A stretch of 43,235 nt of DNA, taken from contig JAUSMG010000348.1 in the NCBI GenBank assembly GCA_030645295.1, forward strand, positions 1-43,235. Direction: 5' to 3'. The stretch is from Saprospiraceae bacterium (GTDB taxonomy: Bacteria; Bacteroidota; Bacteroidia; Chitinophagales; Saprospiraceae). Below, in pieces: positions 15,594 to 38,313 of this stretch (its first letter is position 1; the number at the start of each line of letters is the position of its first letter). The translations under genes were made by a program, and so were the position numbers. The notes beneath the pieces were generated by a model. That model was given only the letters and a program-made list of their open reading frames with translations, searched no databases and was not told the DNA's origin.

Positions 15594-16337
15594 ATGTACA
15601 AAAACAAGAAAGTAGTCGTAGTGCTTCCGGCCTACAATGCCGCCCTTACGCTCGAAAAAACATACCGTGAAATCCCCTTTGACCTGGTAGACGAGGTCAT
15701 ACTCTGCGACGACCATAGCAAAGACAATACTGCTGCACTCGCCCATTCGCTGGGGATACAGCACGTGATCGTGCACGAGAAGAACACAGGCTACGGCGGC
15801 AACCAAAAGTCACTCTACAACAAGGCGCTCGAAATTGGTGCAGACATTGTCATCATGCTCCACCCGGATTATCAGTACACGCCGAAACTTATCCCTAGTA
15901 TGGTCAATATCATTGGGGAAGATCTTTACCCGGTGGTACTGGGTTCCCGCATCCTGGGCATGGGTGCGCGCAAAGGGGGTATGCCGATGTACAAATACAT
16001 CGCCAACCGCTTTCTCACTTTTGCGCAGAATACCTTGATCCACTACAAGTTATCAGAATATCACACGGGCTATCGGGCATTCAACCGTGAGGTATTGCTG
16101 GGCATCAAATTCAACCAAAATTCGGACGATTTTGTATTCGACAACGAGATGCTTTCCCAGATCGTTTATGCGGGTTTCGACATTGGCGAGGTCACTTGTC
16201 CCACCAAATATTTCGCGGAAGCCTCAAGTATCAACTTCCGCCGGAGCATGAAATATGGTTTTGGCGTTTTGCGCGTGTCCTTCTGCCACTGGCTTCAGCG
16301 GATGGGGCTGGCCAAGTTTGCGATGTATCGGAAGTAG
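15594..16337 (+). CDS. Glycosyltransferase family 2 (polyprenyl-phosphate sugar transferase-like)
   Basis: 'KVVVVLPAYNAALTLEKTYREIP...VDEVILCDDHSKDNT', 'MLHPDYQYTPKLIP'. Confidence 0.88.
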   Translation: MYKNKKVVVVLPAYNAALTLEKTYREIPFDLVDEVILCDDHSKDNTAALAHSLGIQHVIVHEKNTGYGGNQKSLYNKALEIGADIVIMLHPDYQYTPKLIPSMVNIIGEDLYPVVLGSRILGMGARKGGMPMYKYIANRFLTFAQNTLIHYKLSEYHTGYRAFNREVLLGIKFNQNSDDFVFDNEMLSQIVYAGFDIGEVTCPTKYFAEASSINFRRSMKYGFGVLRVSFCHWLQRMGLAKFAMYRK

Positions 16338-16457
16338 TTTCAAGTTTCAAGTTACAAGAGGTCTTCGCGCTTGGTACTTGAAACCTTCAACTTGCCACTT
16401 TTAACTTGCTACTTTCAACTTGCTACTTTCAACTTGAAACTTTCAACTTGAAACTTG
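16337..16457. repeat. Word array/inverted repeat C: five 14-bp units plus inverted left arm
   Basis: Units at 16388, 16402, 16416, 16430 and 16444: CAACTTGCCACTTT, TAACTTGCTACTTT, CAACTTGCTACTTT, CAACTTGAAACTTT, CAACTTGAAACTTG. Left arm TTTCAAGTTTCAAGTTACAAG is an imperfect reverse complement. The array runs from the GT2 stop into the DUF2721 stop. Confidence 0.9.
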
Positions 16458-17717: not shown

Positions 17718-19892
17718 ATGAAAAAACTACTGCTCTTACTACTCATCCTTAGCATCATTGAAAGCGTTTCTGCCCAGGGAATGTGGCTACCCTCCTTGCT
17801 GGAAAAACAGAATGAAAAAGAAATGAAATCGCTCGGCCTCAAACTTTCTGCCGACGATATTTACTCCCCCGCCAACCCCAGCATTAAGGATGCTATCTGC
17901 CAGTTTGCCGGTATCTGCACCGGAGAAATGATTTCTCCGGAAGGCCTGCTCCTGACCAATCACCACTGCGGATTTGGCGCCATCCAGCAACTCAGCACAC
18001 TCGAAAGCAATCTCCTCGAAAGTGGCCACTGGGCCAAAGACCGGGCTTCCGAACTGCCTGCAGAAGGCGTGACCGCGATGTTCGTGACCCGAATGGAAGA
18101 TGTGACCATTGTGGCTCTCCAAGGGGTGACGGAAAATATGGGCGAGCGTGACCGCCAATCACAGATCGACAAAAACATCGCCAGCCTGAGGTCCACGACC
18201 AAAAAAGAGAAATGGGAAGACGTGGAAGTTCGTCCGTTCTACAACGGCAACCAATATTATCTTTTCTTAACGCAAACCTTTAAGGATGTGCGTTTTGTGG
18301 GCGCACCGCCCAGCAGCATCGGTAAATTTGGCGCAGATACCGACAACTGGGTTTGGCCGCGGCACACCGGCGATTTTTCCATGTTCCGGGTGTATGCCGA
18401 CAAAGACAATCATCCCGCGCCCTATTCAAAAGACAATGTGCCTTACCGCCCGCGGCACTTTCTACCGATTTCCCTGGACGGCGCAGAGGAGGGCGATTTC
18501 ACGATGGTTTACGGATTTCCGGGTGCAACCAATGAATACCTGACCGAGGAAGGCGTGCGCCTGACGGGCGAGGTGCTCGACCCTGCCAGAGTTGCCATCC
18601 GCGATCGTTCGCTTAAGATCATGGACGGTTTTATGCGCAAGGATCCGGCTGTAAAAATCGCTTATGTGAGCCGTTACGCCAGCATCGCCAATGCCTGGAA
18701 AAAATGGCTGGGAGAAATGCAAGGTTTAAAAACCTACAAGGCCCTCGAGAAAAAGCGCGCATACGAAGCCGAATTTACCCGCCGCCTCGAGCAAAATCCT
18801 GCATGGTACACCCGGTGGAAAAACCTGCTGCCCCGTCTCCGGCAGCTGCATAAAGATATTGAGCCGTATGCCCTGGCACGCGATTATTATTCTGAAACCT
18901 GTCTTCGCAACAATGAAATTCTGGCAACGGCTGCGAACCTAAACAATTGGATAAGCTCCTACGATCCTAAGAACGAAACCGTATTTACCAGCAAACTCAT
19001 GAATGTTAGGGCGGCGATGGAGGATTTTTTCAAAGACTACCGTCCCGAAGTAGATGAGGCAGTGCTGGCTGCCATGCTTGAAATGTTTGGAGAGAACACC
19101 AAGCCCGAATGGGGCGCGAAGGATGTGCAGGGCATGGCTGAACAAGCAGGCGGTTATCCGGCATTGGCAAAGCAGATCATTGGGAACAGCACCATCGCCA
19201 ATCGCGACAAATTCAGGGCGCTTGTAAGCAGCAAAACGCCTGCTGAGATCTATGAGACGCTAAAAAATGACCCGGCCTACAAACTTTGGGATCAATTGCA
19301 GGGCTATTATGCAGCACAGGTACAGCCAAAAATTCAGGAAATTCAACCACAGATCAACTTGCTTCAGCGCCAGTACATGGCAGCACAGATGGAGGTTTTT
19401 AAAGAAACACGCTTTTTCCCGGACGCGAACAGCACGCTGCGCCTCACTTACGGCAAAGTGCGCGGCTTCTCGCCCCGCGATGCCTTGCAATACGAGTACC
19501 AGACCGATCTGGATGGGGTAATGGAAAAATACATTCCCGGCGACTACGAGTTTGATGTGCCACAAAAACTCATAGACCTTTGGAAAGCAAAAGATTATGG
19601 CCAGTATGCTACTGCGGATGGGCGTTTGCCCGTAGCCTGCATTGGCACGAACCATACCACCGGCGGCAACTCCGGTTCACCGGCACTGGATGCAAATGGC
19701 AACCTTATTGGACTTAATTTTGACCGGGTTTGGGAAGGCACCATGAGCGACCTTAATTATGATCCGGCCATTTGCCGCAACATTATGGTGGACGCGCGAT
19801 ACGTGCTTTTCCTGGTGGATAAATTTGGTGGAGCGGGGTATTTGCTGAACGAGATGAAGCTGGTAAAAGGGAAGAAAAAGCGAAAAAAGTGA
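17718..19892 (+). CDS. S46 family serine peptidase (DPP7/DPP11-like)
   Basis: 'GEMISPEGLLLTNHHCGFGAIQ' (His region), 'IGTNHTTGGNSGSPALDANGNLIGLNFDRVWEGTMSDLNYDP' (Ser region), signal peptide. Confidence 0.95.
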   Translation: MKKLLLLLLILSIIESVSAQGMWLPSLLEKQNEKEMKSLGLKLSADDIYSPANPSIKDAICQFAGICTGEMISPEGLLLTNHHCGFGAIQQLSTLESNLLESGHWAKDRASELPAEGVTAMFVTRMEDVTIVALQGVTENMGERDRQSQIDKNIASLRSTTKKEKWEDVEVRPFYNGNQYYLFLTQTFKDVRFVGAPPSSIGKFGADTDNWVWPRHTGDFSMFRVYADKDNHPAPYSKDNVPYRPRHFLPISLDGAEEGDFTMVYGFPGATNEYLTEEGVRLTGEVLDPARVAIRDRSLKIMDGFMRKDPAVKIAYVSRYASIANAWKKWLGEMQGLKTYKALEKKRAYEAEFTRRLEQNPAWYTRWKNLLPRLRQLHKDIEPYALARDYYSETCLRNNEILATAANLNNWISSYDPKNETVFTSKLMNVRAAMEDFFKDYRPEVDEAVLAAMLEMFGENTKPEWGAKDVQGMAEQAGGYPALAKQIIGNSTIANRDKFRALVSSKTPAEIYETLKNDPAYKLWDQLQGYYAAQVQPKIQEIQPQINLLQRQYMAAQMEVFKETRFFPDANSTLRLTYGKVRGFSPRDALQYEYQTDLDGVMEKYIPGDYEFDVPQKLIDLWKAKDYGQYATADGRLPVACIGTNHTTGGNSGSPALDANGNLIGLNFDRVWEGTMSDLNYDPAICRNIMVDARYVLFLVDKFGGAGYLLNEMKLVKGKKKRKK

Positions 19893-19974
19893 ACTATGAA
19901 CTATGAACTATGAACTATGAACTATGAACTATGAACGTGTAGATTCCTTGAAAGCAGGTTCATAGTTCATGAAC
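19891..19974. repeat. Word array D: GAACTAT heptamer x6.6 with inverted arm
   Basis: Six perfect GAACTAT units plus GAAC at 19891-19936, 21-nt spacer, then GTTCATAGTTCAT (19958-19970). The array begins inside the S46 TGA stop codon. Confidence 0.92.
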
Positions 19975-20023
19975 AACATAGGCCACATCTCTACCCGTCA
20001 AAGCCTTAGCGGAGTCGGGATTA

Positions 20024-20095
20024 CATTTTCACATTGGCCACATTTTACACATTGACCACATTGACCACATTTTACTAATTGACCACATTTTAAAA
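20024..20095. repeat. Word array E: eight 9-bp units
   Basis: CATTTTCAC/ATTGGCCAC/ATTTTACAC/ATTGACCAC/ATTGACCAC/ATTTTACTA/ATTGACCAC/ATTTTAAAA, ending 1 nt before the GTG start of the next gene. Confidence 0.88.
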
Positions 20096-28662: not shown

Positions 28663-28706
28663 ATTTTATATTTTCCTGTTCTCCGGTTTTCCTGTTTTGC
28701 GGTTTA
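28663..28706. repeat. Word array F: octamers related to inverted repeat A
   Basis: TTTTCCTG-TTCTCCGG-TTTTCCTG-TTTTGCGG at 28671-28702, preceded by ATTTTATA as in A. Confidence 0.8.
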
Positions 28707-28719
28707 AAATCATTATCTT

Positions 28720-31294: not shown

Positions 31295-33193
31295 ATGAAA
31301 AAATCTACCCTCTTCACTTTCGTTTTTGCCTCTCTGCTCGCAGCGGTAACGCATGCCCAGGGCTTCATACAGCTCGGAACTACACAAATAGTAGATGAGG
31401 GCCATCGCATGATAGCCACCTCCGATGGCGGCTACATCACAGCAGGTTCAGCGGGGACCAAGGCAGTACTTTACAAGACGGATTGTCTGGGCAATCTTGT
31501 GGCCCAGATCGAAAAATCATTCATTCCAGGTCCTGCCCGTTTTTGGGATGTTACAGAGCTTCCCGATGGCAGTATCGTGGCCGTGGGTGGGGCGAGCATT
31601 GCGACCTTTACCGACACTGGAGGCCATGTAATACTACTCAGAACTATGGCAAATCTTTCCGAAACAGCCTCTTCCAGTTTTAAAATACTCAACAAGGAAG
31701 CCCAGGGGAAATCCATCGCCAAAACTCCTACCGGTCAGCTTTTGGTGTGGGGCGAAGTGACTGGTTTTTCGGTCGACTTCACTGATGCGTTCCTCCAGCG
31801 CGTCAGCCCGGTAACCTTGCTGCCTACTGCTGACCCCGTGATCGTCAACAATGGCGTGGACCTGGCCAGTCGAATCATTCCCACAGCCGATGGCAATTAT
31901 TTATTGACGGGCTCCAGTTTTGTGGGCAATATCTTCAATCCAGATGCGCCCATTAACAACCACCTGCGGGCATACAAGGTGGACGAAAACGGTGGGCTCA
32001 TCTGGCAAATCAGTGTGCAGCAGACTTTTTTGGCCAAATATGGCGTGGGAAGGGTCTGTGGTGCAGCGCAGAACGAGGGTTCTGGCAATTTTATGCTGGG
32101 TGGAACGCTCTATGGTGGCACGGACGCCAGGGCACAGGATGCATTTTTTGCCCTGATCAGCCCGGATGGAACCGTGTTGGATACTTCCTATGCAGCGGCC
32201 TTGGGTCAGCAAAAAACACATTCAATCGTTGCCCACCACGACCTCCACGGCTTATTCTCTATGGCTGGCGAAAGCGATGGCTCTCCATTTGGCGTGCCCG
32301 CGGTTGCTCTGGCACAGGCATACGAAATTGGCAACCTTATCGTGGTTTCCGGGATAAGCCTGGACCTGAGCACACCCGTTTCCATTCGCGATCTGGTGGA
32401 AATAGACCCGGGCCGTTTTGCCTTTATGGGCACCATTCCCGACAACCTGGTAGCCTTGGGTGCAACCGATATCATCGTAAGCACGCCAGAGGCGACCGTA
32501 GATATAGTGTACCAGAATTGTGCGCTTGCAGCCACTTATAGTGTTCCTGCGGCGACTTTTCAATGGATTTATGAGGGTCAAATTATACCCGGCGCCAACC
32601 AGGGCGCCTATTTCCCTACCCAGCCAGGGCTTTATCAGGTTCAAATACTGGATGACAAGGGCTGTTTTGGTATGTCCGACACATTCAGGGTAGAGGGTCC
32701 GGTGGCTGATTTTACGTTTTCTTCCGATGGCTTGACGGTTACTGTTACCAATGCCTCGCAGGGCGCTACTTCCTATTTGTGGGACTTTTGTGACGGGAAT
32801 TTAAGTACTTTACCCAATCCTGTGCACACCTACGCCGCACCTGGGGTGTACTGTTTGACCCTCTATGCAATAGACAATTGTGGCCTCGTGGACACGATTG
32901 TCTATCCAATTGGAGTTACACCAACAAATGAACCTTCCTGGCTGAATCATTTGAGCCTTGCGCCCAACCCAACCAGCGGCATTTTCAGTCTTGAGATGAG
33001 TGGTACGCCACAAGGAAAAGTGGAATTTGCGCTATTCAATACCGTCGGTCAATTGATCAGTCAGGAGGAGCTGAATTTCCAAAATGGCTACTTGCAAAAA
33101 AACTTCGATCTGGGAGCATTTCCGGGGGGTGTTTATTCCCTTCAGATCAGATCGGGCATGGAGTTAAAAATTGTGCGAGTGGTAAAGCGGTAG
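31295..33193 (+). CDS. Secreted PKD-domain protein with T9SS sorting domain
   Basis: Signal peptide; PKD-like 'SYLWDFCDGNLSTLPNPVHTYAAPGVYCLTLYAIDNCG'; C-terminal 'LSLAPNPTSGIFSLEM...GGVYSLQIRSGMELKIVRVVKR'. Confidence 0.88.
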   Translation: MKKSTLFTFVFASLLAAVTHAQGFIQLGTTQIVDEGHRMIATSDGGYITAGSAGTKAVLYKTDCLGNLVAQIEKSFIPGPARFWDVTELPDGSIVAVGGASIATFTDTGGHVILLRTMANLSETASSSFKILNKEAQGKSIAKTPTGQLLVWGEVTGFSVDFTDAFLQRVSPVTLLPTADPVIVNNGVDLASRIIPTADGNYLLTGSSFVGNIFNPDAPINNHLRAYKVDENGGLIWQISVQQTFLAKYGVGRVCGAAQNEGSGNFMLGGTLYGGTDARAQDAFFALISPDGTVLDTSYAAALGQQKTHSIVAHHDLHGLFSMAGESDGSPFGVPAVALAQAYEIGNLIVVSGISLDLSTPVSIRDLVEIDPGRFAFMGTIPDNLVALGATDIIVSTPEATVDIVYQNCALAATYSVPAATFQWIYEGQIIPGANQGAYFPTQPGLYQVQILDDKGCFGMSDTFRVEGPVADFTFSSDGLTVTVTNASQGATSYLWDFCDGNLSTLPNPVHTYAAPGVYCLTLYAIDNCGLVDTIVYPIGVTPTNEPSWLNHLSLAPNPTSGIFSLEMSGTPQGKVEFALFNTVGQLISQEELNFQNGYLQKNFDLGAFPGGVYSLQIRSGMELKIVRVVKR

Positions 33194-33218
33194 GATATAA
33201 AACAGGCACATGAATTAA

Positions 33219-33359
33219 ACAGGAAAACCGCAAAACAGGAGAACAGGAAAATATAAAACCGCACATAATGATCCGAAGAGGGCTAAAATCTTCCCTTTTC
33301 GAGATCAAGGTATTCGCGGTTTTATATTTTCCTGTTCTCCTGTTTTGCGGTTTTCCTGT
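33219..33359. repeat. Inverted repeat A: 44-bp perfect arms, 53-nt loop
   Basis: 33219-33262 ACAGGAAAACCGCAAAACAGGAGAACAGGAAAATATAAAACCGC is the exact reverse complement of 33316-33359. Confidence 0.95.
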
Positions 33360-33481
33360 ATAATTTTCCTTTATAATTTTTGCGAAAAATGGCAAAAGCT
33401 CAATTTTGGCGGGCAGCCTAATGGATAAATTTGTACTCTTGTACCGTCTGCTATAAACCACGAACCGCTTCCGAAGGAATT

Positions 33482-36217
33482 ATGAAACAAAAACTACTGC
33501 TTCCGCTCCTCGTTTTTTTGGCTGCGCCCATCGCGCTTTTTGCCACGCACAACCGCGCCGGGGAGATTCACATTGAGCAAATCGGTCCGCTCACCATACG
33601 CGCTACCGTCATCACCTGGACAAAAACAAGCAGTGTGAATGCTGACCGTGATACCCTGGAGATCAACTGGGGGGATGGCCAAATTCAAAAGGTGCGCCGC
33701 TCCAATGGTTTCGGCAATCCTCCACAGGGCGTCCCGCTGGCCAACGACATTAAGTACAATATCTATGTTGCCGAACATATGTACGCCGGAGCGGATAGTT
33801 TCGTCATCTCCATGACGGACCAGAATCGTATTGGAGGTATTATCAACGTGAACCCGCCTGCCTCAGACAATATTCCATTTCATATCCAGACTACCTACAT
33901 TTTTCAGGATTCGCAATTTGGAGGCTCCAATACCACCCCTTTACTATTGCAGCCGCCCATCGATAATGCTTGTATTGGCAAGCCTTTCAAACACAATCCG
34001 AATGCTTCTGATCCTGATGGCGACAGTCTTTCGTACGCACTCATCGTGCCGATGCAGGGGCCTGGCGTAGAAGTCCCCAATTATTCATTCCCCAACGAGA
34101 TCATGCCGGGGCTTAACAACGCGTTTCAACTGGACCCGGTCTCTGGCGATATATTATGGCTATCGCCACAAGTTGCGGGCATTTACAATATTGCGTTCAC
34201 CATTATTTCCTGGCGAAAAGGCAGGCTCATTGACATCACCATTCGGGACATGCAGATATTCGTTTCCGCATGCGAAAACAACCCGCCGATAGTAGAAACG
34301 ATCGATAAAATATGCGTGGTGGCTGGTAACACGGTAGATTTTGAAGTTACCGCCACAGATGTCGACAGCACGGATGAGATATTGCTAACTGCCTTGGGCG
34401 CCCCGCTCACATCGCCCTTCAGCCCGGCCACTTTCGATGCACCCACTAGTTGGGGTGAGGCGCCTGTGTCTGGTACATTCAATTGGCTTACCGCCTGCGA
34501 ACACATTTCCAATCAGTCTTACTCCGTAGTTTTCAAGGCTACAGATTCGCTCACAACCCCGCAACTGGCTGATTTGCACACCGTAACCATCAAGGTAGTC
34601 GGTCCTTCACCGGAAGGATTGCTGGCCAATGCCGAACCGGACTTCATCGAGCTCAGTTGGGATAAACCATACAGCTGTGAGGGCGCTGCCAACAATTATT
34701 TCCTCGGGTTTTCCGTGTGGCGACGCGAGGGCAGCAATCCATTTGTGATCGACACCTGCACCCCCGGATTGGCGGGAAAGGGCTACACCCAGTTGATCTC
34801 GGTTACCAAAGCGGTGAAAGACGGGCGATATTATTTTAAGGACAACGAAGTGGAGCCGGGATTCACCTATTGTTACCGGGTTTTGGCAAAATTTGCCCGG
34901 GTTTCAGCGGGCGGTTATCCGTACAATATCGTGGAAAGTCTGGCTTCTGCAGAGGTTTGTGCCCAGCTTCCACGAGACCTGCCGCTCATCACCAATGTAT
35001 CCGTGGAAGCAACGGATGCCTCGGCGGGTAAGATCCGGGTAGCCTGGTCCAAACCCGTTGGAGGCGATCTGGATACGGTAATCAATCACGGCCCATACCG
35101 CTATCAGCTGCTTCGTGCGCCAGGGTTTACGGGCGGGGTGTATACAGCACTGCCCGGCGCATCCTTTGTTTCCAATACTTTTTGGGAGGCCAACGACACC
35201 ATTTATGAATTTGACGAAGGCCTCAATACCGTAGCCGGGCCTTACCATTACAAAGTTGATTTTTATGTGAAAGGGAATGTTTTACACGGCGCTACCCGGG
35301 ACGCTTCTTCGGTCTTTTTGAATGTGGCTTCGACCGACAAAACCAATATTCTTTCCTGGGAGGCCAATGTGCCCTGGACCAACTACGCCTTCAAAATTTT
35401 CCGAAAAAACGACCAGACGGGATTGTTCGCTCCCATCGGGACTTCCGCCACTGACGGCTACGAAGACCGTGGTCTGATCAATGGAAAGGAATACTGTTAC
35501 TATGTGGAAAGTGAAGGGACTTATAGCGTCGGGGGGCTTTTGAACCCATTGTTCAACAAATCTCAGGAGACCTGTGGAACACCCATTGATACGGTGCCGC
35601 CTTGTCCGCCGGTGCTGGCAGTGAGCAACTTATGCGACGATCCAGCGGCCAGTCCCGGGCCACCTTTTCTCAATAACCTTTCCTGGACAAACCCCAACGT
35701 GGCTTGTGGAGGAACCGACGATGCGGTTGGGTACAAAATTTGGTACACCCCGGTTGCAGGCGAACCACTGATGTTGTTGGCCGACCAAGCCGGGGCTACC
35801 AACACAATTTTCGAACATACGCTCGAAAACCAGCTCGCAGGCTGCTATGCTGTTTCTGCCATTGACTCGGTGGGCAACGAAAGTCTGCTCAGCAATCTTT
35901 TTTGTGTGGACAATTGCCCAAACTATGAACTTCCCAACGCCTTTACACCTAACGGCGATGGTGCAAACGACCTTTATACGCCCTTCCCTGGCTGGCGCTT
36001 TATACAAAGCATTGACATGCAGATCTTTAACCGCTGGGGAAACCTCGTTTTCCAGACCACTGATCCAAACATCAGCTGGAATGGCACCAACGAAGGCGGG
36101 AAAGAACTGTCAGAGGGTACTTATTTCTATGTGTGCAAGGTATATGAGAGCCGCGTAGGCGGTGTGGTGTTGAGGCCGGGAGTGTTGAGTGGGTATATTG
36201 AGTTGGTAAGAGGGTAG
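33482..36217 (+). CDS. Large secreted protein with gliding motility-associated (T9SS type B) C-terminal domain
   Basis: Signal peptide 'MKQKLLLPLLVFLAAPIALFA'; C-terminal 'LPNAFTPNGDGANDLYTPFPGWRFIQSIDMQIFNRWGNLVFQTTD...SGYIELVRG'. Confidence 0.92.
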   Translation: MKQKLLLPLLVFLAAPIALFATHNRAGEIHIEQIGPLTIRATVITWTKTSSVNADRDTLEINWGDGQIQKVRRSNGFGNPPQGVPLANDIKYNIYVAEHMYAGADSFVISMTDQNRIGGIINVNPPASDNIPFHIQTTYIFQDSQFGGSNTTPLLLQPPIDNACIGKPFKHNPNASDPDGDSLSYALIVPMQGPGVEVPNYSFPNEIMPGLNNAFQLDPVSGDILWLSPQVAGIYNIAFTIISWRKGRLIDITIRDMQIFVSACENNPPIVETIDKICVVAGNTVDFEVTATDVDSTDEILLTALGAPLTSPFSPATFDAPTSWGEAPVSGTFNWLTACEHISNQSYSVVFKATDSLTTPQLADLHTVTIKVVGPSPEGLLANAEPDFIELSWDKPYSCEGAANNYFLGFSVWRREGSNPFVIDTCTPGLAGKGYTQLISVTKAVKDGRYYFKDNEVEPGFTYCYRVLAKFARVSAGGYPYNIVESLASAEVCAQLPRDLPLITNVSVEATDASAGKIRVAWSKPVGGDLDTVINHGPYRYQLLRAPGFTGGVYTALPGASFVSNTFWEANDTIYEFDEGLNTVAGPYHYKVDFYVKGNVLHGATRDASSVFLNVASTDKTNILSWEANVPWTNYAFKIFRKNDQTGLFAPIGTSATDGYEDRGLINGKEYCYYVESEGTYSVGGLLNPLFNKSQETCGTPIDTVPPCPPVLAVSNLCDDPAASPGPPFLNNLSWTNPNVACGGTDDAVGYKIWYTPVAGEPLMLLADQAGATNTIFEHTLENQLAGCYAVSAIDSVGNESLLSNLFCVDNCPNYELPNAFTPNGDGANDLYTPFPGWRFIQSIDMQIFNRWGNLVFQTTDPNISWNGTNEGGKELSEGTYFYVCKVYESRVGGVVLRPGVLSGYIELVRG

Positions 36218-36218
36218 G

Positions 36219-36385
36219 GATTTACGATTTACGATTTTGGATTTACGATTTACGATTTACGATTTTGGATTTACGATTTTGGATTTACGATTTACGATTA
36301 TTTTGATCCGAAAAAGGCATAATTCATCCTTTCTTCCAATCAAAATAATCGTAAATCGTAAATCCAAAATCGTAAATCGTAAATC
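36219..36385. repeat. Inverted repeat B: heptamer array (GATTTAC/GATTTTG) with ~40-bp perfect arms
   Basis: Eleven perfect heptamers at 36219-36295. Right arm 36339-36385 is the reverse complement (GTAAATC, GTAAATC, CAAAATC, GTAAATC, GTAAATC). Fills nearly the whole gap between two convergent stop codons. Confidence 0.96.
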
Positions 36386-36387
36386 GA

Positions 36388-38313
36388 TTACCGCTGTACG
36401 ATCAATTTCCGCGTTTTAGCGATCTCTCCGTTGCGTACTTGTACGAAGTACACGCCGTTTGGAAGGCTGCTAACATCAAAAGTGAATTGATTTTCGCCTT
36501 TGGTGAGCGTATTCTGTTGTGTAAGGGCCATTTTACCCGATGGATCAATGATGGTAACGCTAACATTGCCTTCTGCCTCCAGAGGGACTTCCACGGTCAA
36601 TTGCTCCATAGCGGGGTTGGGGAAGAGACCAAAGCCGACGTTCTCAAACACGACATCCAGTGAAATTTCTTCCACCGCACCATCCGTAGAGCCATCAGTA
36701 CGCCATGCGCTCGAGCTTCTGCTGGCTTTGAAGGTGTAGCACTGCGTATTGCTCCATGCGCCATTGTAACCGTACACATATGCCTTGTAATCAGTACCAA
36801 CAGTAGCATTGTTCAGGATGATCAGTTCGTCGGCAGTACCGCCATTTTGTGAGGTCTTTTTCAGCGAGGTGCCCTTATAAAGTTTCAAGTCGTAGTCAAA
36901 AGGCAAAGTGGTCAATTCCACCTTGATATTTTTTTGGCTGCTGGTATTGCCAAACAAGTAATAGTCCTTGTCGGTCGTTGAAGCAATTTGTGCTGTAAAG
37001 GCGGTATTGATCGGGACAGATTTAGCCGTGCTGTTGGTATTGTTAGTCTCGTATTGGTCGGCACAGTTGGATGCGGTAGTGAATTGTGCTGAACCATAGC
37101 TACTCTCCTGGCCATTGCAAATTGCTTTCACCCGATAGTCATAAAGTGTTCCGGTCGTTAAACCATTCAAATTATGCGTAGTGGCGGTGAGGTTGGGCAC
37201 AACAGTATAGTTTAGGTCCGAATTTTTCTTCCATTCAAAAGTATAGGTCGTAGCCCCGCCTACTGCATTCCAATTGCAGGTTGCACTGGTTTGGGTAATG
37301 TTGGTGGCCGTAAGACCAGATGGTGTGCCACAGCCGGAGGGCTCCTGGCAACCCGGTGAGCTGGCCAATGCTATCCGTGCTCCACCAGAGGAGAACAACG
37401 ATTGCATCCGCGTTTTTTGACCTGCCGAGAAAACATTCATGCAGGCATCGTCGGTGTAGTCCATGTAATTCATGAACATATCGCCATTGGGGCCATTGCT
37501 GCAACTGATTTGTGGGAAAGATGGGCAGCCATAGTTTTCGTCGGCCTGGTTTGGCGTATCGCTTGATCCATCTGAACCGGTACATGCACTTCCGTCATCT
37601 CCCCAAATGTGGTAACAGTTGAGCCAGTGGCCCACCTCGTGCGTGGCCGTACGGCCTTTGTCAAAAGGAGGGGTTGCGCCAATGGTGCCGAAATAGGCAT
37701 AGTCGCAAACCACACCATCGGTAGCAGCTGGGCCGCCGGGGAATTGTGCGTAGCCAAGCAAGCCGCCTGAGAGATTGCACACCCAGATGTTGAGGTACTT
37801 GTTGCGGTCCCAGATATCAAGACCACCTGAGGAGTAATACTTTACGTTGTCGTTGGTGCCAAAACCGTTGACCGTAGTTTGGCGGCGTTGGATGCCATTG
37901 GTAGCAGCGCCGTTGGGGTCTTGCGTCGCTATGCAAAAGTTGATCTCGCAGTCCGCCGCAATGCCTTGAAAAGCAGCGGGGGTGTTGCCCTTATCGGCAT
38001 TGGTGCGGCGGAAATCGGCGTTCAAAACATCCAGCTGCGATATGAGCTTCGCATCCGAGAGGTTCTGGGTACTGTTGTAATACACCACATGGAACACGAC
38101 CGGGATGGTGATCACGGCGCGGTCAATGGCCCCGCCGGATTGCGCAAATTGGCGGGTGTGCTCTTCGATGCGTTGGATTTCCTGGAGCATTGCCGGGTTG
38201 TCCAGCAATTGTTGGGCAAGCACTTCTTCTGCAGCGCAGGTTCGGTGCTGGGCAGACGCGTTGAACGCGAGCAGCAAAAATGCAGCAATCGGGGAAAGGA
38301 ATTTTTTAAACAT
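36388..38313 (-). CDS. M43 family zinc metalloprotease (cytophagalysin-like) with FnIII, PPC-like and T9SS domains
   Basis: 'TATHEVGHWLNCYHIWGDD' (HExxHxxxxxH), 'FMNYMDYTDDACMNVFSAGQKTRM', FnIII-like 'TSATCNWNAVGGATTYTFEWK', C-terminal 'GLFPNPAMEQLTVEVPL...KTRKLIVQR'. Confidence 0.93.
   Translation of the reverse strand: MFKKFLSPIAAFLLLAFNASAQHRTCAAEEVLAQQLLDNPAMLQEIQRIEEHTRQFAQSGGAIDRAVITIPVVFHVVYYNSTQNLSDAKLISQLDVLNADFRRTNADKGNTPAAFQGIAADCEINFCIATQDPNGAATNGIQRRQTTVNGFGTNDNVKYYSSGGLDIWDRNKYLNIWVCNLSGGLLGYAQFPGGPAATDGVVCDYAYFGTIGATPPFDKGRTATHEVGHWLNCYHIWGDDGSACTGSDGSSDTPNQADENYGCPSFPQISCSNGPNGDMFMNYMDYTDDACMNVFSAGQKTRMQSLFSSGGARIALASSPGCQEPSGCGTPSGLTATNITQTSATCNWNAVGGATTYTFEWKKNSDLNYTVVPNLTATTHNLNGLTTGTLYDYRVKAICNGQESSYGSAQFTTASNCADQYETNNTNSTAKSVPINTAFTAQIASTTDKDYYLFGNTSSQKNIKVELTTLPFDYDLKLYKGTSLKKTSQNGGTADELIILNNATVGTDYKAYVYGYNGAWSNTQCYTFKASRSSSAWRTDGSTDGAVEEISLDVVFENVGFGLFPNPAMEQLTVEVPLEAEGNVSVTIIDPSGKMALTQQNTLTKGENQFTFDVSSLPNGVYFVQVRNGEIAKTRKLIVQR

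Follow-up and report, generated by a model that had tools for sequence, protein, structure and literature searches.

Two hairpins with unrelated word arms in a Saprospiraceae genome are copies of one dispersed repeat family, a candidate stand-in for intrinsic terminators

Two long hairpins lie behind neighbouring genes on contig JAUSMG010000348.1 of a Saprospiraceae bacterium (GCA_030645295.1). The whole stretch analysed here, i.e., the window, comprises 43,235 nucleotides. The hairpin stems are built of different short words, and a similar sequence stands at the centre of both. The locus thus raises two questions, i.e., what kind of element carries one core on different arms, and what it does between genes. 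Both hairpins belong to one family of dispersed, non-coding hairpin repeats. A typical copy is 110-150 bp long; its tip is a quasi-palindromic core of 39 bp that is conserved between copies, and its long stem consists of 7-9 bp words arrayed in inverted orientation. With a probability of about 0.55, this family would be an interspersed, terminator-like 3'-end hairpin repeat that stands in for intrinsic terminators behind stop codons.

Cores and arms of the two hairpins

The cores of elements A and B were found where the first-pass annotation had placed them (Table 1). Their ungapped identity was counted as 27/39, one less than the 28/39 given there, and the reported identity of bases 1-9 was correct. 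When both core sequences were shuffled 100,000 times, the best identity was 23 and the mean was 10.2. No 39-mer of the window, on either strand, reached 24/39 to core A, other than A and B themselves and B read on its reverse strand. The core had also been described as a small imperfect hairpin, and this structure is seen in core A.

Table 1. Features of the two hairpins, their neighbouring genes and a solo arm in the window
Feature	Position	Strand	Description
Solo half-element	28664..28707	-	single octamer arm, no core or partner arm; just past the stop of gene 27860-28657
Gene upstream of element A	31295..33193	+	tandem context
Element A, left arm	33213..33262	+	octamers AAACAGGA AAACCGCA AAACAGGA GAACAGGA AAATATAA AACCGC
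Core A	33269..33307	+	TGATCCGAAGAGGGCTAAAATCTTCCCTTTTCGAGATCA; imperfect hairpin at the tip; 62.9 bits to the covariance model
Element A, right arm	33316..33365	+	octamer arm as reverse complement
Gene between elements A and B	33431..36217	+	stop abuts B
Element B, left arm	36219..36299	+	about 11.6 heptamers GATTTAC/GATTTTG, from the stop codon of gene 33431-36217
Core B	36304..36342	+	TGATCCGAAAAAGGCATAATTCATCCTTTCTTCCAATCA; 64.6 bits to the covariance model
Element B, right arm	36347..36386	+	5.7 reverse-complement heptamers, up to the stop of convergent gene 36388-38313
Convergent gene	36388..38313	-	stop abuts the right arm of B

The arms belong to different word families as claimed, i.e., 8-mers in A and 7-mers in B, with truly distinct vocabularies. 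The arms of A (33213-33262/33316-33365) pair without gaps and are 95% complementary across 55 nt. In B, the pairing (36260-36320/36326-36386) is 89% across 61 nt, and more GATTTAC words extend back to 36219. Because the stop of the convergent gene abuts its right arm, element B fills the 170 bp junction. Compared with shuffled sequences, both elements fold strongly, i.e., -64.3 kcal/mol for A as DNA (z -18.1) and -67.2 kcal/mol for B as RNA (z -15.9).

The core family and its arm vocabularies

Further cores were searched in the genome of origin (G000; 4.96 Mb, 491 contigs), as the first reading of the locus had proposed. The pattern TGATCCGAA-N15-35-ATCA gave 13 + 9 matches on the two strands, and the reversed-pattern control gave 0; a few of these 22 matches are plainly unrelated coding sequence (e.g., loci L016, L017, and L023). 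A covariance model built from 18 cores, each with six flanking bases per side, gave approximately 35 sites at E<1, with E-values to be read as rough. Given the near symmetry of the core, several sites were matched twice, once per strand. Covariation in the core is modest.

Matches at E<1e-5 were obtained in 4/42 genomes of the genus, i.e., G000, G010, G026, and G034. The covariance model found no core in the remaining 38 genomes, bar one weak match in G014, and none in 24 genomes of other families. In GTDB r220, the perfect-palindrome pattern was confined to three MAGs, whose labels read Saprospiraceae or Lewinellaceae bacterium. A viral origin was considered and set aside, as the perfect-core pattern is absent in IMG/VR. 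The genomes compared are mostly fragmented MAGs, in which copies near contig ends are under-described. In the MAG of origin, contigs are broken inside or beside palindromes at L012 (end of C51), L022 (end of C341), L080, and L085. Copy numbers are lower bounds because of such breaks. If the reading given above is right, the word-array palindromes of this family would account for assembly breaks in these genomes, as several contigs end inside them.

The first-pass annotation had suggested a composite element, i.e., a conserved core around which different word arms are built. At least four arm vocabularies were found on the one core: octamers (AAACCGCA, AAACAGGA, GAACAGGA, and AAATATAA), GATTTAC/GATTTTG/GAATTAC heptamers, GATTCGATT, and ACGGTTT/ACGGTGT. 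Arms were scored beyond the span of the covariance model, i.e., the core and 6 nt on each side. In the four genomes, 71 of the 75 copies with enough flank had inverted arms pairing better than 99% of random positions, so the arms expected around further cores are present. The weakest-paired copies were the short-armed ones, mostly of G026. Octamer arms also flank a related second core (TTTTGATTGCGAAT...GGGCAAGACATTGACC), and in some cases the centre between them is unrelated.

The history of the arms was followed on a core tree, which is built on just 39 columns and is poorly resolved. Arm type changed 7 times on this tree against a shuffled mean of 25.5, and genome of origin changed 21 times, with copies from different genomes intermixed. 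Core subtypes and arm types are thus largely inherited together, and arm exchange is rare though real. The arm subfamilies appear to predate the species. Word mirror concordance between the two arms was 80 against a shuffle mean of 68.1 (sd 3.7), so that strict copying of words from one arm to the other is only moderately supported.

These data bear on neutral growth in place, in which units of 7-9 bp slip and template switching mirrors them at a pre-existing hairpin, the core being the ancestral hairpin. Word-arm hairpins with other, unrelated centres are common in every genus member sampled, solo and one-sided arrays occur, and word arms flank a canonical terminator in G014, all of which would fit such growth. 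However, unrelated loci cannot have acquired one 39-bp core independently, and core subtypes track arm types, so units were copied as wholes. Growth in place is therefore an improbable account of the family.

An unrelated core, CGTAGAGT...ACTCTACG, forms a second family in another branch of the genus. The copies numbered 73 in G035, 70 in G028, 36 in G006, 13 in G031, 12 in G016, and 1 in G007, with 0 in the control. The first core is absent in all six genomes. The stem of the second core shows paired changes (GTGTACC/GGTACAC, ACACC/GGTGT, and TTGACC/GGTCAA), and its arms are of several word families, i.e., GTGAGAG, CGAAGTC, CGCAGAA, and GTTCGTT-type. Because this core is built alike, the design of one core with different word arms recurs; the design is real, and the composite proposal is borne out. 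Loci L194 and L265-L280, in G035 and relatives, belong to this second-core family and carry several word vocabularies.

The second family also weighs on a possible role as a DNA site. The core palindrome TGATCCGAA...TTCGGATCA may be bound by a dimeric protein, i.e., a nucleoid, gyrase-like, or uptake factor, at convergent gene ends. In the outer stem of the core, the letters themselves are conserved in addition to the pairing, and a DNA role at convergent junctions fits the positions. Against this, relatives have a second family that behaves alike with another core, and no candidate binding protein was identified. A protein site is considered very unlikely.

Gene ends and exchange with intrinsic terminators

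The position relative to genes was assessed for 80 copies. Genes were called by a simple heuristic coding-potential caller, and the copies of C51 and C341 in this set are probably a single site split between contigs (at least one such pair). Convergent gaps held 30 copies, tandem gaps 32, and divergent gaps 3; the remainder of the 80 lie near contig ends or inside doubtful gene calls. The comparison gaps of at least 100 bp, taken from sampled parts of G000 and G026, were 25 convergent, 76 tandem, and 35 divergent. Of 146 gene ends beside copies, 104 were stop codons, at a median of 39 bp from the core, and 42 were starts, at a median of 115.5 bp. Copies placed behind stop codons, mostly in convergent and tandem gaps, could provide a 3'-end hairpin for genes entering from either side.

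The element persists vertically at orthologous sites. Four such sites are common to G000 and G034; the flanks are 74-84% identical and the arm family is kept, whereas the words and loop letters differ.

At an orthologous junction, the element replaces a canonical terminator. The convergent junction of the transketolase and citrate synthase genes holds a canonical bidirectional terminator in G021, G029, G017, and G063, and in G026 a canonical terminator follows right after the transketolase stop. In G000 and G034, the element alone spans the junction from stop to stop, i.e., 123-125 bp. In G006, G031, G035, and G028, the transketolase gene has another neighbour and is followed by second-core elements.

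The site behind prs, which like the transketolase gene was surveyed across the genus, also varies. The element lies directly behind the prs stop in G010 and G034 and is absent there in G000, G026, and others. The same spot is occupied by word hairpins of other vocabularies in G022, G023, G016, and G035; G031 has a one-sided word array, G014 has GCCGTTA words around a canonical terminator, and G001 and G064 have bare canonical terminators. Several genomes of the prs survey have no hairpin directly after the stop. A conserved CCTACTGC...GCAGTAGG-T8 hairpin lies farther downstream of prs in many genomes, with the element present or not.

At convergent junctions with the element, a canonical terminator was detected in just 2/27, both outside the core. 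In a small and partly post hoc comparison that pools all long hairpins, canonical terminators were rarer where a long hairpin was present, i.e., 3/35 against 9/26 without (Fisher p=0.02). A scan for canonical intrinsic terminators gave no match in A or B. The core has few G-C pairs and its U tract is buried in the stem. Because the core itself is not a canonical terminator, we infer termination. The positions and the swap with terminators suggest that the hairpin either does the job of a terminator or makes it dispensable.

The element would most likely act at the RNA level. A transcript of either strand is predicted to form a very stable hairpin, which may help to end transcription, cap the 3' end of the mRNA and so guard it against exonucleases and read-through, or both. 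The word arrays may have arisen by slippage, and template copying between the arms may have contributed.

One further difference between orthologous regions was observed. In G034 (L134), a whole gene and its downstream element are present, and both are missing in G000 (L079), like a cassette. An integron attC site was considered for this single case and rejected, as the element is dispersed and is conserved at the centre rather than at the ends.

Comparison with known repeats

The nearest analogue in working is the pneumococcal SPRITE, and the terminator-forming uptake sequences of Neisseria are another. SPRITE hairpins are interspersed repeats that concentrate at 3' ends and in convergent gaps, and their co-option as terminators has been proposed (PMC3049150). 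BOX, RUP, and IS elements of S. pneumoniae are over-represented in convergent gaps, and the terminator-resembling SPRITE most of all (PMC3049150); neutral or selfish repeats can therefore be placed much like the present copies. The present family likewise consists of homologous hairpins scattered over gene 3' ends, mostly in convergent and tandem gaps. However, SPRITE has an 18-bp stem and a U-rich tract (PMC3049150), whereas the element described here has stems of 7-9 bp word arrays, several vocabularies per core, and no U-rich tract after the duplex in the core and arm listings or the terminator scans. DNA uptake sequences of Neisseria are short repeated words whose inverted pairs behind genes form terminators, but they are a single 10-mer pair, have no long arrays or central core, and are linked to transformation (PMC2397512).

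Other repeats share parts of the design. BOX of S. pneumoniae and S. suis is a modular, intergenic, RNA-folding composite of fixed modules and a tandem module of variable number (PMC3049150). In BOX, fixed A and C flank tandem boxB, whereas the present element has its fixed module in the middle, between two arms of tandem words. Heptamer arrays such as TAACTGA, found in Beggiatoaceae, Cyanobacteria, and Bacteroidetes, are intergenic and have related variant words, but they are direct, lie mostly before start codons, and are not inverted around a conserved core (PMC4679880). A search for heptamer words, palindromes, and Saprospiraceae in a limited open-access library found no description of this design. 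Eight Rfam matches were all sub-threshold; the best, to a long-hairpin miRNA model, scored 55 bits, whereas the gathering score is 135.

Mobile palindromes were weighed as well. REP/BIME with RAYT are many-copy extragenic palindromes behind genes, but the element has no GTAG tag, no adjacent RAYT, and far longer stems. In the core alignment, the base of the palindrome carries neither GTAG nor CGTC as a tag, and the RAYT loci inspected carry their own REPs and not this core. RAYT-type Y1 transposase genes occur across the genus (L116-L132), most amid their own GTAG-tagged REP family. A MITE was rejected, as there are no conserved terminal inverted repeats; the outer ends consist of variable words, and conservation across arm types is limited to the centre. 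Direct repeats at the element ends equalled the control, i.e., no signal of target-site duplication. No linked transposase was found for the core family.

A purely selfish, non-autonomous palindrome of MITE- or REP-like kind, moved by a transposase in trans, could still survive preferentially at harmless 3' ends. The patchy distribution in the genus with dozens of copies per genome, the identical cores 1 kb apart on contig C295, and the intermixing of genomes on the core tree are consistent with it, and neutral repeats typically show a 3'-end bias. It is nevertheless rather unlikely here, because the duplication signal, the central conservation, and the company kept by the Y1 genes all speak against it, and canonical terminators are missing where copies sit.

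The preferred reading, a hairpin repeat that stands in for terminators, would mean that a bacterial lineage swapped single-locus terminators for a dispersed, copyable hairpin module at least two times with unrelated cores. It would offer a natural test of which features a terminator requires, i.e., stem stability, loop, or U tract, and of how word-array palindromes grow and spread with no evident transposase. A broader reading can be put forward only tentatively. One Saprospiraceae genus may possess a modular class of 3'-end elements, in which lineage-specific mobile cores, at least two of them unrelated, and exchangeable word-array stems progressively replace intrinsic terminators. If so, these genomes would be moving from ordinary transcription stop signals to signals carried by repeats, which would have a mechanism of their own for spreading and arm swapping.

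Other word arrays were observed in the window. A word-arm hairpin of AGTTTCA / ACTTGAAACTTTCA with a different centre lies at a convergent junction (16336-16456). At 19890-19974, TGAACTA heptamers run from the TGA stop of gene 17718-19892; a centre of 21 nt and a short arm in inverted orientation follow. A one-sided array of CACATTGAC/CACATTTTA words was found at 20023-20089, upstream of a plus-strand gene.
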